DNA of 64,000 nucleotides, taken from NCBI RefSeq assembly GCF_024199925.1, contig NZ_JANADR010000001.1, forward strand, positions 6,079,501 through 6,143,500, read 5' to 3'. Positions 577-8,558 of the stretch are shown one piece after another (within the stretch, counting starts at the first letter, position 1; each line of letters opens with the position of its first letter). A model generated the notes under the pieces. It searched no databases. It worked only from the letters and a program-made list of their open reading frames with translations, and was not told the DNA's origin. This DNA is from Bradyrhizobium sp. CCGUVB1N3. Its GTDB lineage: Bacteria; Pseudomonadota; Alphaproteobacteria; Rhizobiales; Xanthobacteraceae. The position numbers and the translations under genes are program-made.

Positions 577-1713
577 ATGACCCCTTCCCGCATTCATCGC
601 CTGACGCTGACGCAGTTTCGCAATTACCGGGCGGCGGGGCTCGAGACGACGGCTGACATGGTGGCGCTGGTCGGCCCCAATGGTGCGGGCAAGACCAATT
701 GCATCGAGGCCATCTCGTTTCTGTCGCCGGGCCGCGGCTTGCGACGGGCGACGCTGGAGGACGTCGCCGACAATCAGGGCGACGGATCCTGGGCGGTCTC
801 CGCGCAGGTCGAGGGCGCGCTGGGCCTCGGCACGCTCGGCACCGGCATCGATGCGCCGCGCGCCGACAGCGCGGTGAGCCGGCGCTGCCGCATCGACCGC
901 GAGCCGGTCAACTCGGCGAGCGCCTTCGGCGACCACATCCGCATGGTGTGGCTGACGCCGGCGATGGACGGCCTGTTCATGGGCGCGGCCTCGGAGCGGC
1001 GGCGCTTCTTCGACCGCCTGGTGCTGGCGATTGACAGCGAGCATTCCAGCCGCATCTCGGCGCTCGAGCGTTCGCTGCGCTCGCGCAACCGGCTGCTCGA
1101 GGTGCGCAATTATGACGACCATTGGTGCGACGCCATCGAGCGCGAAACCGCCGAGCTTGCGGTCGCGGTCGCAGCGACGCGCGGCCAGACCGCTGCAAAG
1201 CTCACCGCGATGCTCAATGGCCGCGCGCAATCCTCGGCGTTCCCGTCGGCGCAAATCGCGCTCGACGGCTGGATGGAGAACGCGTTGCTTGCAGAGACCG
1301 CGACTTCGGTCGAGGACCGCTACCGCCAGATCCTACGCGACAACCGCCCGCGCGATGCGATCGCCGGCCGCACCACCGACGGGCCGCACCTCACCGATCT
1401 CCAAGTCGTCTATGCGCCGAAGGGGATGCCGGCGCGCGATGCCTCGACCGGCGAGCAGAAGGCGCTGCTGATCGGGCTCGTGCTGGCGCATGCGACGCTG
1501 GTTGCCGAGATGACCGGCATCGTGCCGCTCTTGCTGCTCGACGAGGTCGTCGCGCATCTCGATCCGCACCGCCGTGCGGCGCTGTTTGCCGAACTGCAGA
1601 AACTCGGTGCGCAGGTGTGGTTAACCGGCGCCGACCCTGCCGCTTTTGCCGAGATCGGCAGCTCCGGCGAGGTGTTCGACGTCGAGAACGGGCGCATCAC
1701 GGCGCGCCGGTAG
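577..1713 (+). CDS. recF: DNA replication and repair protein RecF
   Basis: SMC-like ATPase that helps load RecA at single-strand gaps and stalled forks, together with RecO and RecR. The 378-aa protein has the N-terminal LTLTQFRNYR strand, a Walker A motif GPNGAGKT at residues 33-40, the ABC signature STGEQKALL, and a Walker B LLLLDEVVAHLD near the C-terminus. The frame is open from 514, but that part translates the palindromic repeat; the ATG at 577 gives the normal RecF N-terminus. gyrB follows after three unrelated exported-protein genes, which look inserted into an otherwise classic recF-gyrB arrangement. Confidence 0.96.
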   Translation: MTPSRIHRLTLTQFRNYRAAGLETTADMVALVGPNGAGKTNCIEAISFLSPGRGLRRATLEDVADNQGDGSWAVSAQVEGALGLGTLGTGIDAPRADSAVSRRCRIDREPVNSASAFGDHIRMVWLTPAMDGLFMGAASERRRFFDRLVLAIDSEHSSRISALERSLRSRNRLLEVRNYDDHWCDAIERETAELAVAVAATRGQTAAKLTAMLNGRAQSSAFPSAQIALDGWMENALLAETATSVEDRYRQILRDNRPRDAIAGRTTDGPHLTDLQVVYAPKGMPARDASTGEQKALLIGLVLAHATLVAEMTGIVPLLLLDEVVAHLDPHRRAALFAELQKLGAQVWLTGADPAAFAEIGSSGEVFDVENGRITARR

Positions 1714-1720
1714 GGTCACC

Positions 1721-1836
1721 GTTGAACCTGACGGGTTCCCCCGGCGACTAGTCTCTTGAGGCCGCGCCGACAGTGTCGCAGCCGTTGCAATCGCGCGATG
1801 CCCCGATTGGCGCGCAACATCCTTGGAGATTCGACG
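1721..1836 (+). promoter_or_regulatory. Conserved upstream region, copy 1 of 3
   Basis: Begins GTTGAACCTG and contains GGCGACTAGTC, then GACAGTGTCGCAGCC, and ends with CAACATCCTTGGAGA just before the ATG. Matching blocks in the same order and at nearly the same distance from the start codon recur at 4039-4150 and 4974-5086, ahead of the two paralogous genes. It probably holds the promoter and ribosome-binding site and perhaps an operator. No sigma-factor consensus is convincing. Confidence 0.6.
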
Positions 1837-4011
1837 ATGTCGACAGTAAGGCGCGGGACGAAAGTTCCGGCACGATGGCGGCTGTTTGTGTGCGGCCTCT
1901 TCCTGGTGGCGAGTTGCCCAATCGTGGCAAGGGCCGATGACGGCTTGGTTGACGTTCGCACGCTGCCGAAACTGGAAGGCGCGGTGGAGGATGCCGCGCG
2001 CACCGAATCCCACAGTCTGCAGTATGGCGTGCCGACAGTGGTCGCGGCGACGACCGCCGCCGCGCGAAAGCTCCTGAGTGCCGACGGCTGGGTACAATTT
2101 GTCCAGCCGACCGAAGAAAACAGCCCCATCTTGATGTTCAGGAAGGGACGGCTGGGACTGCACGTCTCCTTCACGCAGGGCCTCGGCCGGCCCGATCAGT
2201 CCGTGGTGTATTATTCCGCGAACCGGATCAGCGGTAATGTGCCGTTCCCCGCGACCGCTACCGACATCGTGTTCGACGAAAATCGTCCCTATCTCAGCTG
2301 CATCGCTCCGTCGTCGTTCGATGCGACACAGGACTTCTTCGCCAAGGAAATGGCTGCGATCGGCTGGCAGCCGCTCACGGCTGAAGCAGCCGCGCGCTGG
2401 CCGAACGCCGACCTCAATGCAACCGTCGCAAATGGCGTGCGCACCTTTTACGTCCATGACGACAGCAATGGATTCTATCGACAGAAGCCGATCATGCTGA
2501 CGCTGACGCGCCGCGACGACGGCCGCACCAATGTCGAGGCCAGGATCGCGCCGTTCGCGCTGCCCGCGGACCTTCAGGCCGGCGACGACATGGCCGGCCT
2601 TCCACGCCCCAATCCGATCAAGTCGGCCCACGGCAAGGGCAGCGCCAGCTCGAATCAGCGGGAGATCACGGTGGCCGTGATTGCCGATCTGCCCGCCGTG
2701 CTCGCTTTCTACCATCGCGCGTTTGCGGCGCGCGGCTGGACGGAAGAGGGGAATGCGCCTCTTGCCGCAGGCGATGACGTCGCGCTCAAATTCTCTTCGC
2801 CCGAGGAAACCGGCGTGCTGCGGCTCGGCCGCAAGTACGACTTCACGATGGTCTATCTGACCGCGCAGGTGAAGGAATCCGTGCTCGCCGCCCGCGCCAA
2901 GGCGAAGAAGGACGCCGACGACCAATTCATGAAGGACGCGGATCAGATGGTGAAAGATGTCCTCGCCGCCGACGAAGTCCGTCGCAAGACACAGGCCGCC
3001 ACCTTGTCCGATACGCCTTTGCAGGCGCAGGCCGGCAGCACCACGCCGGTGCCGCTGCCGGAGAACGCGCAGGAAGTGGATTTCAAGGGCGATGACGGCC
3101 GGCTCGAATTCAACTCCAGCTCCAGCGTCAAGGCGATTGCCGCCTTCTACCGTACCTCGCTGAAGCAGGCGGGCTGGAAGGAACAGCCCTCGGTGATCAA
3201 CCAGCCGAACATGGCCGTGCTGGAGTTTTCCAAGGGCGGCAAGACGATCTCGTTCACGGTGATGCAGATGGGCGCCAAGGTGAATGTCAGCGCCGACGGG
3301 TCCGGCCTGCGCATGGCCGCGGCCAAGCCTGCGTCCACGGGCAAGCAGGCCGGCGGCGATCAGGCTGGCGCGCAGGCCAAAGCGTCCGCGCCACTCGAAG
3401 CGGACCCGGAGTCTGCGCTTCCCGTGCCGAAGCAGCGCACCGCGACCTCACTCGGCACTGCAAAACTGCCCGGCATCGAGGCTCCGTTCCGCCGCGAGCT
3501 CGAAGCCAGCGTGCCTGCCGAGCTCAGCGACGTGCTCTCGTTCTATCGCAGCGAACTCACCAAGCTCGGCTGGCAGGAGAAGCCGGATGGCGCGGTGGTC
3601 GCCGCCGATCGCGTGCAGCTCGCGTTTGCTTCGCCGCAGGGACCAGCCGTGCTGAAGCTCGGCCGCGCCAATGGCGAGACCTCGATCAATCTCGTGCAGA
3701 AGAACCCGGATGCCGCGACAAAAGCGGACATCATGCCCAAGCCCGGACAGGCCAAGCTGCTGCTCGGCAACATGGGAAATCAGGAGGCGCAGCTCACGAT
3801 CAACAAGCAGACCGTCAAGATCGTCGCCGGCGCTGGCGGTCCGCAATCGCCGAAGGGCCCCATGCTCGATCTGCCACCCGGCAAGTACCAGTACTCGCTG
3901 AGCGTGCCCGGCCGGCCCGCCCGCACCGAGAGCATCACGATCGCCGCGGGTGACGCCTGGGGCCTCATGGTGGGGCCGACCGGCGAGGTGCTGCCGCTCC
4001 AGATGTACTGA
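1837..4011 (+). CDS. Large exported protein with five FY/GW modules, function unknown
   Basis: 724 aa from the ATG at 1837 (GGAG upstream; the frame is open from 1756). An N-terminal RRGTKVPARWRLF stretch and hydrophobic core end in ARA-DD, a signal peptidase I type site. VASC at residues 24-27 also resembles a lipobox, but the second paralog lacks the Cys. The mature part repeats a module of about 65 residues: a helix (often FYR or FY) ending in GW, then strands ending in a hydrophobic -LxLGR- or similar segment. GW pairs fall at 84, 176, 300, 446 and 578. Modules 3 to 5 are separated by charged or Ala/Pro-rich linkers. The last ~90 residues form a beta-rich domain with LDLPPGKYQYSLSV, like PEGA or carboxypeptidase-regulatory folds. 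I do not recognise the family. Confidence 0.8.
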   Translation: MSTVRRGTKVPARWRLFVCGLFLVASCPIVARADDGLVDVRTLPKLEGAVEDAARTESHSLQYGVPTVVAATTAAARKLLSADGWVQFVQPTEENSPILMFRKGRLGLHVSFTQGLGRPDQSVVYYSANRISGNVPFPATATDIVFDENRPYLSCIAPSSFDATQDFFAKEMAAIGWQPLTAEAAARWPNADLNATVANGVRTFYVHDDSNGFYRQKPIMLTLTRRDDGRTNVEARIAPFALPADLQAGDDMAGLPRPNPIKSAHGKGSASSNQREITVAVIADLPAVLAFYHRAFAARGWTEEGNAPLAAGDDVALKFSSPEETGVLRLGRKYDFTMVYLTAQVKESVLAARAKAKKDADDQFMKDADQMVKDVLAADEVRRKTQAATLSDTPLQAQAGSTTPVPLPENAQEVDFKGDDGRLEFNSSSSVKAIAAFYRTSLKQAGWKEQPSVINQPNMAVLEFSKGGKTISFTVMQMGAKVNVSADGSGLRMAAAKPASTGKQAGGDQAGAQAKASAPLEADPESALPVPKQRTATSLGTAKLPGIEAPFRRELEASVPAELSDVLSFYRSELTKLGWQEKPDGAVVAADRVQLAFASPQGPAVLKLGRANGETSINLVQKNPDAATKADIMPKPGQAKLLLGNMGNQEAQLTINKQTVKIVAGAGGPQSPKGPMLDLPPGKYQYSLSVPGRPARTESITIAAGDAWGLMVGPTGEVLPLQMY

Positions 4012-4038
4012 ACCGCCGGCTTTGCCTGTAACGGCCAG

Positions 4039-4150
4039 GTTGAACCTGGCCGGTTCGTGCGGCGACTAGTCGTCTAGAGGCTGCGGCCACCGTGTCGCAG
4101 CCTCTGCATCGCGCGAAGATCAAGACGCGCGACATCCTTGGAGAGTAAGC
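4039..4150 (+). promoter_or_regulatory. Conserved upstream region, copy 2 of 3
   Basis: Same blocks as at 1721 in the same order. This copy has the clearest symmetry: an inverted repeat GGCCAGGTT-G-AACCTGGCC starting at 4033, the palindrome CGACTAGTCG near 4064-4073, and a 9-bp stem GAGGCTGCG/CGCAGCCTC around 4078-4105. It ends in ACATCCTTGGAGAGTAAGC before the ATG at 4151. Confidence 0.6.
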
Positions 4151-4945
4151 ATGACGAGGGTAAGGCATCGGACGAAAGCCCCGGGACGGTGGCGGCTGTT
4201 TGCATGCGGCCTCTTCTTCCTGGCTAACTCGCCGATCGCGGCACGGGCCGAAGGCCTCGTGGATATGGTGGAGGCCTATCGCGGCTGCGTCGCGCCGAGC
4301 CCGCTTGCCAGGATCACGGCTGCGATCGGATGGCAGAAGCTCACGCCAAAGCCGGGCAAAGACATGCCCGTGCCGGCGGAATCCAGCTTCAGCAGCTTCA
4401 ACACTACGGTAGCGTTCAGAATCAAGGAGCCGCTCCGGAGCACGCTCGAAGCCTGCGTGCCCGCCAAGCTCGGCAACGTGCTGGCCTTCTATCGCACCGA
4501 GCTCGGAAAGCTCGGCTGGCAGGAGAAGCCGGATGGCACGGTGGTCGCCGCGGATCAGGCGCAGCTTGCCTTCGCCTCCCCGCGGGGGCCGGCCCTGCTC
4601 AAGCTCGGCCGCAGGAACGGCAACACCTCGGTCAGTCTTGTGCAGAAGAATTCGGACGCCGCGACCAAGACGAATCTCATGCCCGTGCCCGGTCAGGCGA
4701 TGCTGGTATTCGACAATAAAGGCGACAACGAAGCCGTGCTCACCATCGACAAGCGGACGATCACGATCGCGGACGGTCAACGGAACGCGCTGAGCCTCGA
4801 TCTGCCGCCGGGCGAGTATTCCTACGAGCTGCGCGTGGCAGGCCATCCAGCTCGCGCCGACACCCTCACGATTGCCGCCGAAGACACCTGGGAGCTTACG
4901 GTGGGACCCGATGGGAACGTACGGTCGCCGCTCCAGCTGTACTGA
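4151..4945 (+). CDS. Exported protein, short paralog of the 1837-4011 product
   Basis: 264 aa with the same N-terminus (RHRTKAPGRWRLFACGLF) and an IAARA-EG cleavage site. The lipobox-like Cys is absent here, which argues for ordinary signal peptidase I processing of the family. Residues ~44-65 (GCVAPS...AAIGWQKLT) align with module 2 of the large paralog in shortened form. Residues ~97-167 are the full FYRTELGKLGWQEKPDG module (GW at 122-123), and 175-264 the beta-rich end with LDLPPGEYSYELRV. It looks like an internal-deletion derivative of a common ancestor. Expression is probably shared with the flanking paralogs through the conserved upstream region. Confidence 0.78.
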   Translation: MTRVRHRTKAPGRWRLFACGLFFLANSPIAARAEGLVDMVEAYRGCVAPSPLARITAAIGWQKLTPKPGKDMPVPAESSFSSFNTTVAFRIKEPLRSTLEACVPAKLGNVLAFYRTELGKLGWQEKPDGTVVAADQAQLAFASPRGPALLKLGRRNGNTSVSLVQKNSDAATKTNLMPVPGQAMLVFDNKGDNEAVLTIDKRTITIADGQRNALSLDLPPGEYSYELRVAGHPARADTLTIAAEDTWELTVGPDGNVRSPLQLY

Positions 4946-4973
4946 GCCCGCCGGCTTTGCCTGTAACGGCCAG

Positions 4974-5086
4974 GTTGAACCTGTCCGGTTCGTGGGGCGA
5001 CTAGTCGTCTGGAGACGGCGGCGACAGTGTCGCAACCGCTGTATCGCGCGAAGATCGCGACGCGCGACATCCTTTGGAGAGTGAGC
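4974..5086 (+). promoter_or_regulatory. Conserved upstream region, copy 3 of 3
   Basis: Third copy of the block set (GTTGAACCTG, GGCGACTAGTCGTCT, GCGACAGTGTCGC, ATCGCGCGAAGATC, GACATCCTTTGGAGAG). Here GCGACA-G-TGTCGC is a perfect 13-base palindrome. Similarity extends upstream into the 3' end of the preceding gene (CCGGCTTTGCCTGTAACGGCC), marking the unit of duplication. Confidence 0.6.
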
Positions 5087-5839
5087 ATGAAGATGGTCAA
5101 GCGCGGGACGAAAGCTCCAGCACGATGGCGGCTGTTTGCATGCGGCCTCTTCCTTCTCGCAAGCTGCCCGCTTCCGGCTCAGGCCGAGGGCTCGGTGCCG
5201 CACCTGTCGCGGCTGTACCTGGCGCAGCTGCAGGACGGGCCGCTCAAGCTCGATCCCGGTGCCGATCTGCCCGTGCCGACCCGGATCAGCCACAGACAGT
5301 TCACTTTCAACTATGCTGACGGCGTCAAGGCCCCGATCCGGCGCACGCTCAAGGCCAGCATTCCCGCCGAGCTCAGCGACGTGCTCGCCTTCTACCGCAC
5401 CGAGCTGGCGAAGCTCGGCTGGCAGGAAGTGGCAGATGGCGCCGTCGTTGCGGCCGAGCAGGCGGAGCTCTCGTTCACATCCCCGGAGGGGCCGGCGACC
5501 CTGAAGCTTGGCCGCGCGAAGGACGAGACCACGGTCGACCTTGTACAGCGGAATCCGGAGGCCGCGGCCAAGGCCAAATTCCTGCCGATAGCAGGACAAG
5601 CGCGTCTGATATTCGGCTATCTCGTGCCGGATGTGGCTTCGCTCGCGATCAACGATCAAACCATCAAGATCGCGGGCGGCGAAAATCACCCACAAACGCT
5701 GGATCTGCCGCCCGGCACCTATTCCTACGAGCTGCTCGTGTCGGGCCATCCGGTCGGCACCAATACCATCACTGTGGCCTCAGGCGAGGCTTGGTCCCTC
5801 GGGGGAGACAACGGCGATAAGCCCTCCCGGATTTACTGA
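5087..5839 (+). CDS. Exported protein, second short paralog of the 1837-4011 product
   Basis: 250 aa from the ATG at 5087, placed like the starts of both paralogs; an earlier in-frame codon at 5027 lies in the conserved upstream block. The signal peptide has LLASCPLPAQA-EG, so both a lipobox-like Cys at 27 and an AxA site exist. One FYRTELAKLGWQE module is present (GW at 111-112), followed by the beta-rich end with LDLPPGTYSYELLV. The N-terminal ~50 mature residues differ from the other paralogs, and the last residues (GDNGDKPSRIY) diverge too. Function is unknown; periplasmic or outer-membrane location is inferred from the signal peptide. Confidence 0.78.
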   Translation: MKMVKRGTKAPARWRLFACGLFLLASCPLPAQAEGSVPHLSRLYLAQLQDGPLKLDPGADLPVPTRISHRQFTFNYADGVKAPIRRTLKASIPAELSDVLAFYRTELAKLGWQEVADGAVVAAEQAELSFTSPEGPATLKLGRAKDETTVDLVQRNPEAAAKAKFLPIAGQARLIFGYLVPDVASLAINDQTIKIAGGENHPQTLDLPPGTYSYELLVSGHPVGTNTITVASGEAWSLGGDNGDKPSRIY

Positions 5840-6017
5840 ACTCCAAAGCCTTCCCCGGGGCGGCCACGGCTCCTCGGAACCGGCGCCGTCACACCGGGAA
5901 ATGCGGTCGTTTTCGACGCGAGAAGCGCCCTCGAATCGGGCTTTTCGCGGGCTTCGGAATCGGCCTTCGAACGCCTTGAAAACCGGTTAAAAATCCCTAT
6001 CTGATCAAAGGGTTGCG

Positions 6018-6048
6018 GGAGGATACTTTGCGCTAGGCGCAATCCTCC
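6018..6048 (+). promoter_or_regulatory. Hairpin in the gyrB leader
   Basis: GGAGGA (6018-6023), a 4-nt bulge, then TTGCGC-TAG-GCGCAA and TCCTCC (6043-6048): a 12-bp bulged stem with a 3-nt loop about 75 bp before the gyrB ATG. No run of T follows, so it is not a standard terminator. A weak promoter candidate lies upstream (TTGAAA at 5976, TATCTG at 5998). Confidence 0.45.
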
Positions 6049-6065
6049 TTTCATGGCACAAATAG

Positions 6066-8558
<2,493 letters not shown>

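Follow-up and report, generated by a model that had tools for sequence, protein, structure and literature searches.

What are three related hypothetical genes doing between recF and gyrB of Bradyrhizobium sp. CCGUVB1N3, and with which other genes are they switched on? The genes lie in a 64,000-nt window (the whole stretch of DNA analysed, to which coordinates without a locus label refer) at G000:C1:6079501-6143500 of a 10.4-Mb genome (G000); its closest named relatives are Bradyrhizobium proteins. Three co-oriented open reading frames (ORFs) of 724, 264 and 250 codons fill the interval from recF (514-1713, RecF/SMC_N domain) to gyrB (6123-8558, DNA_gyraseB domain): gene 1 (ORF1; 1837-4011), gene 2 (ORF2; 4151-4945) and gene 3 (ORF3; 5087-5839), all on the + strand, as are the features within and upstream of them; gene starts and downstream genes are taken from the ORFs. 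The answer developed here is that the trio, whose proteins are predicted to be exported, would be switched on together with membrane-stress genes (LemA, PspA-like) from a predicted promoter of the extracytoplasmic function (ECF) type, and that its repeated modules would bind envelope proteins, without enzymatic activity, to protect or sort them. We give this joint statement an even chance, since its core is the regulon and not the binding step.

A promoter-like motif precedes each gene of the trio

The preliminary description of this locus, made from the sequence alone, had claimed that the three genes share their upstream regions. This claim holds: a common element fills the gap between the recF stop and the gene 1 start codon (1714-1836; profile match 1711-1834, E 3e-29) and precedes gene 2 (4012-4150) and gene 3 (4946-5086), the latter two recognized by profile match and DNA comparison. 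Between upstream regions 2 and 3, identity is 90% over 139 nt, compared with 70% over 570 nt of module and C-terminal coding DNA. A search of the 10.4-Mb genome with the element of gene 2 gave three matches at E ≤ 0.001, each of them at the trio. Each copy holds a conserved two-block motif that we predict to be an alternative-sigma (ECF-type) promoter, at 1722-1750 (TTGAACC-N16-CGACTA), 4040-4068 and 4975-5003. In its 29-nt form, KTGAAC-N17-CGACYA, the motif occurs three times in the window, once before each trio gene, with 0.02 expected.

We then followed the element through the window and 72 loci gathered by homology, and found it 135 times at E ≤ 1e-5 in 67 of the 73 sequences. TTGAACC and CGACT are 98-100% conserved across these copies, other positions 35-100%, and a ribosome-site-like GGAG is as constant as the two blocks. 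An exact-pattern count gave 157 block pairs, every one of them with a spacing of 16 and none on the opposite strand, and in 138 a start codon lies 71-90 nt downstream. Both blocks persist even at loci without any other match to the element profile (L111, L113, L116-L118, L144, L146, L128), and the motif also stands before dispersed members of the gene family. A copy with one mismatch is present in G270, from another genus of the taxonomic family, and L147/L148 read CCAC; family members from other families of the order lack the motif. An RNA structure in the element was considered and rejected (no Rfam match; inconsistent folding z of -0.67, -3.3 and -0.06).

The layout is that of an ECF-type promoter, with an AAC-containing -35 block, a CG-containing -10 block and a fixed 16-17-nt spacing upstream of start codons. 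No sigma-70 consensus promoter was found in 1600-6200. The general-stress promoter has the form GGAAC...CGTT. As given in the passages of PMC3420878 consulted, ECF group 16 promoters have the consensus tGTAACc-N16-CGAA, and EcfF targets, methionine sulfoxide reductase genes among them, have the form GTAAC(g,a)-N14-15-(c,t)CG(t,a). The trio motif resembles these group 16 promoters (EcfF of Bradyrhizobium) by an AACC in the -35 block, a CGA in the -10 block and a 16-nt spacer, and differs from them in having TTGAACC and CGACT. The part of PMC4842269 consulted reports only RpoD- and RpoN-like motifs, and literature searches together with passages of PMC3420878, PMC4842269, PMC6180224 and PMC9731502 yielded no identical motif in print.

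The motif is shared with membrane-stress and caspase-like genes

Scanning seven genomes of the genus, we counted the pattern 114 times, against 23 for the reversed pattern used as a control. Thirteen of the 114 occurrences lie at family genes, judged by position. Of the 101 others, 81 were examined (78 stretches), the remaining 20 being mostly coding-looking, and 57 of the 81 fall outside probable coding ORFs; coding status was judged from ORF length and GC content at third codon positions (GC3), by which some sites before caspase-like genes are flagged as inside an opposite ORF. The genes behind the motif recur between genomes, LemA in five of the seven and a PspA-like gene in four. Their types, assigned with Pfam from a single member of each (from two in the case of the caspases), are LemA, Peptidase_C14 caspase domain, PspA/IM30, S26 signal peptidase, DUF2157 and DUF3592, with KTGAAC-N17-CGACYA before the LemA, caspase-like, PspA-like, signal peptidase and DUF genes of L333, L331, L329, L330, L348, L345 and L342. 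Exported proteins of no assigned type are also among them, and one of the caspase-domain proteins carries a peptidoglycan-binding domain as well. The caspase cluster is counted as 9, since two of its 11 members (L332 and L357) start unlike caspases.

Outside the genus, the pattern exceeds its control in G270 (11 versus 2) and G398 (6 versus 1), and eight other genomes sum to 15 versus 8. Judged by N-terminal sequence, the genes behind the motif in G270 are a LemA-like gene, two caspase-like genes and the gene of one unassigned exported protein; in G398 the motif stands before a caspase-like gene. Overall, the sharing of the motif with LemA, PspA-like, caspase-like and signal-peptidase genes is well supported, and the motif is very probably a real regulatory element common to the trio and these other genes. 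LemA and PspA belong to membrane stress, and we lean towards viewing the shared gene set as an envelope-stress regulon; to our knowledge, exported bacterial caspase-like proteins have few established physiological contexts.

A candidate sigma factor

From its layout, the motif is probably read by an ECF-type sigma factor. We scanned 30 of the 48 Sigma70_r4_2 loci of G000 for the motif near the gene start, and a site that deviates from it at no more than one position came up at a single locus. It reads TCGAACC-N16-CGACCA and lies 46 nt upstream of the earliest possible start, with 0.18 such sites expected in the scanned positions. Behind the ECF-type gene of this locus (L297/L433; L433:3401-3970, - strand) come an anti-sigma-like gene (scoring 34.5 bits against an NCBIfam anti-sigma model, below its cut-off) and then a subtilase gene, the three forming a row at L433:998-3970, within G000:C1:2574998-2582027. 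With its near-match promoter, the gene is perhaps the reader of the motif. A second ECF sigma gene, accompanied by an NrsF gene, lies ~4 kb from the candidate (L433:6843-8028).

Architecture of the three proteins

From the signal-peptide-like starts of all three genes we predict export to the periplasm, in keeping with the first description, which placed the proteins outside the cytoplasm. The start of gene 3 contains a lipobox-like LASC, and a lipobox-like sequence is present in 82 of the 117 short homologues and in 45 of the 118 long ones. ORF1 and ORF3 have a common N-terminus (24 of 34 residues identical), and the trio proteins share an FY(R)...GW module and a C-terminal domain with LDLPPGxYxYxL. 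Protein identity reaches 50% for ORF2/ORF3 (E 1e-81), 57% for ORF1/ORF2 (E 3e-72) and 54% for ORF1/ORF3 (E 2e-65), similarities far above chance that bear out the original picture of three genes with the same N-terminus, modules and beta-rich end.

Gene 1 (724 aa) encodes, after its signal-peptide-like start, a divergent module 1 (2002-2232), modules 2 (2245-2556; profile match 2242-2415) and 3 (2602-2877), a long predicted helix (2875-3003; H347-389 of the AlphaFold model), modules 4 (3052-3306) and 5 (3442-3714; also aligned with ORF2 and ORF3), and a C-terminal beta-sandwich in the AlphaFold model (3727-4008) with LPLQMY as last residues. Profile comparison by hhalign relates modules 3 and 5 (98.7%, E 1.5e-16), 4 and 5 (91%), 2 and 3 (82%), 2 and 4 (71%), 2 and 5 (69%), and 3 and 4 (43%). 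Module 1 appears unrelated to modules 2-5 in these comparisons (best 6.5%) and is not matched by the module profile; its strand and helix order in the AlphaFold model equals that of the others. The five modules announced for gene 1 thus stand as four related by sequence plus one that rests on predicted structure, as only topology agrees there.

Gene 2 (264 aa) has a signal-peptide-like start, a module-2 remnant (4307-4345, 79% identical over 39 nt to 2341-2379), one FY/GW module (4427-4654) and a C-terminal beta-sandwich (4685-4942). In gene 3 (250 aa), one module (5321-5566) is followed by a C-terminal domain (5588-5836) that is a beta-sandwich by alignment with gene 2. Over the 10.4-Mb genome the module profile has six matches at E ≤ 0.001, four in ORF1 (modules 2-5) and one each in the modules of gene 2 and gene 3; the remnant and the single full copy in each short gene had been seen correctly.

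Relatives and predicted folds

Pfam and NCBIfam scans of the three proteins gave no match above cut-off, and sequence searches of the PDB, run with ORF1, with the module profile and with a two-module profile, gave nothing meaningful (best E 0.11). A precomputed Pfam tag, PF27226.1, is attached to 120 listed ORF1 homologues, to the ORF1 entry P0121 and to many two-module relatives, and to none of the 120 listed homologues of the short genes. A single-module lipoprotein family without a name was seen in 57 of 240 alphaproteobacterial genomes (lipobox, FxQFxDIPIP...FYxxEMPxFGW...; L210:1375-1971, L211:1447-1953, L213:739-1395 and relatives in L219-L248). The trio module is, by profile comparison, a relative of this lipoprotein domain (97.6%, E 4e-12 over 82 columns in hhalign): the lipoprotein profile gives 50-92% against single modules and below 1% against the controls (module 1, linker, C-terminus). 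The lipoproteins differ from the trio in having one module, a lipobox and no visible C-terminal beta-sandwich. That no characterized family could be recognized remains true of function, but the listed ORF1 homologues do carry the PF27226.1 tag and the module has the lipoproteins as relatives.

From the reading of ORF lists, no common neighbours surround the single-module lipoproteins in the 18 loci listed, and the neighbour genes of relatives outside the genus include no shared partner. One two-module relative (L209:1477-2145, genome of another class) lies between genes that resemble, by eye, Tad-type pseudopilins. The candidate fvmX5 (FtsH ternary system X5) was rejected: 17 of 34 members match weakly (best E 6.5e-4), and the five that were rescored gave 14.8-17.7 bits, below the cut-off of 24.2.

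The predicted module fold, checked by structure comparison as suggested at the outset, appears to resemble DcrB (9.4), SciW (9.2), EagT6 (8.2) and 6v05_C (7.3; chain C of a Bam complex, which from its letter we take to be BamC), and PsbP by Foldseek. The trio family differs from these Mog1-PsbP-like proteins by its tandem repetition, and the likeness has no counterpart in sequence: the DcrB family profile (PF08786) matched none of the three proteins and nothing in G000, and hhalign against four sequences gave 0.1%. The C-terminal domain compares to AlgF domains, the PepT extracellular domain and the HGSNAT luminal domain, and differs from them by its conserved PLQMY-type terminus; no AlgF row appeared for the three proteins in Pfam at E up to 10, a search whose filters drop most weak matches. 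The top Foldseek E-values for ORF1 (KICSTOR, FimD) were disregarded as long alignments with low TM values.

An insertion between recF and gyrB at the level of the genus

Family genes lie between recF and gyrB in 69 of the 72 loci, two of which (L082, L084) come from one genome. The other three comprise two loci that reach a contig edge after recF and a Pseudolabrys metagenome-assembled genome with neither flank in reach. Counted as C-terminal-domain matches, which may include fragments, the genes number one in 7 intervals, two in 31, three in 30 and four in 1. Within the genus, 21 of 36 genomes surveyed have a match, which in G023 and G034 scores no higher than dispersed paralogues do; eight of the 15 genomes lacking one were inspected, and seven (G003, G004, G006, G009, G010, G013, G015) have a recF-gyrB interval of 236-492 nt free of family genes. 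The gyrB upstream region (5919-6122), which forms the right edge of the insertion, is kept at these empty sites (76-85% identity to G003, G004, G006, G009, G013 and G015); as it aligns between the filled site and six empty ones, the insertion lies between the recF stop and this region. The trio is thus an insertion of the genus, spread through it and not strain-specific, so that the lineage-specific insertion first proposed is right in kind and too narrow in range. Among other members of the order, the neighbourhood, presented as normally tight, is so in G039 and G041 (69 and 81 nt), and has ORF-sized gaps in G047 and G048.

The carriers whose recF and gyrB are most divergent contain no family genes but large ones, one in L111, L113, L116 and G270 (where it occupies the same recF-gyrB site) and two in L117 and L118, which agrees with one ancestral gene having been duplicated and shortened. 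The dN/dS ratio (non-synonymous to synonymous substitution rates) is 0.24-0.48 in the five orthologue pairs tested, from which the trio is seen to be under purifying selection. The upstream copies look homogenized and appear to recombine, with w2/Ec3 at 96% versus w3/Ec3 at 90% and Ec2/Ec3 at 94%.

Other genes enter the same interval. AT3-SGNH acyltransferase genes lie there with or without module genes (L189:6686-8572 in G022, L186:2888-4753 in G019, which has no module-gene match, and L197:7497-9377 in G001; partial in L015 of G031), and their presence at one place in G022, G019 and G001 makes the interval an insertion hotspot. A sulfatase gene (Pfam) at L093:11100-13703 separates the large module gene from the third one, and L087:7751-10356 resembles this stretch and seems to be split among several reading frames. 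One contig of 1033411 bases (G011) holds the recF-module-gyrB block twice (L082, L084), ~600 kb apart and with equal scores. In the window, a DUF559 (restriction-endonuclease-like) gene lies directly upstream of recF (10-486).

Discussion

The element copies are homologous, so that their constancy alone proves little; more weight rests on the three occurrences of the 29-nt form in the window, once before each gene, and on the blocks that persist at loci without any other match to the element profile. The two blocks could instead be the operator of a DNA-binding regulator, for instance a response regulator, which would leave the gene set co-regulated. This would fit the strict motif standing before no sigma gene among the loci scanned in G000, and the element contains GAACC-N5-GGTTC, a dyad conserved in part (G 0.82, G 0.72, T 0.99, T 0.93, C 0.84). 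We judge an operator unlikely, since the dyad is missing from L116-L118 and L144-L146, yet GAAC and CGAC stay there 17 nt apart, a retained spacing that is ECF promoter geometry, as in the group 16 consensus given in the consulted part of PMC3420878. In addition, the sites proposed for the envelope regulator ChvI in the passages of PMC9731502 consulted, TTGC-N3-GCAA and N-GCC-N8-GCC, are different.

The function of the proteins could also be read otherwise. In one alternative, the proteins would be extracellular or lie at the surface, would be adhesin-like or associated with polysaccharides, and would vary in copy number; the AlgF-like C-terminus and the acyltransferase and sulfatase genes nearby would then suggest that envelope polysaccharides are modified. 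We give this reading a low probability. The apparent recombination of the upstream copies, the varying gene number and the empty sites would suit a neutral, homogenized repeat array that occupies an insertion hotspot and has little function today; the dN/dS values and the promoter blocks conserved at dispersed members too argue against this, and we consider it very unlikely. That the proteins are Eag-type chaperones for toxins with membrane segments is hardly credible: Eag chaperones are cytoplasmic, whereas the trio has signal-peptide-like N-termini, and its immediate neighbours are recF, gyrB and an EPSP-synthase-type gene, with no type VI effector gene adjacent.

Our preferred reading is an envelope-stress regulon read at TTGAAC-N17-CGACYA in Bradyrhizobium and near relatives, perhaps by the ECF sigma factor encoded beside the anti-sigma-like and subtilase genes, that would join LemA, PspA-like proteins, exported caspase-like proteins, a signal peptidase and an expandable FY/GW array as a new class of periplasmic stress effector; we hold it to be about evenly balanced between right and wrong. 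Since the trio has its promoter-like signal in common with membrane-stress genes, it is likely part of the care of a damaged envelope. Envelope stress would free the sigma factor from its anti-sigma factor, and RNA polymerase would then start at each trio gene separately. The modules, to which we tentatively ascribe, from their predicted fold, a binding or holding activity on proteins or membrane segments and not catalysis, would bind these in the periplasm and protect or sort them. Gene number may tune the dose and the range of binding; one promoter per gene together with a varying gene number suggests that dose and specificity are tuned by recombination. Periplasmic effectors of an envelope-stress regulon are of a known kind, whereas the module family, the gene array and the promoter set are undescribed in the literature and databases searched, and no literature on these genes was found under bll0825, bll0826, recF/gyrB, LemA/PspA/ECF/caspase or the motif letters.

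Through this analysis, three hypothetical genes become testable as members of a co-regulated set, for which a concrete promoter sequence and a candidate sigma factor offer the means to find the stress signal. It unites a widespread alphaproteobacterial lipoprotein domain with multi-module proteins, so that a structure or function established for either would apply to both, and the filled and empty recF-gyrB sites of related strains provide a natural comparison of presence and absence. A promoter shared with LemA and PspA-like genes would place exported caspase-like proteins in membrane stress.

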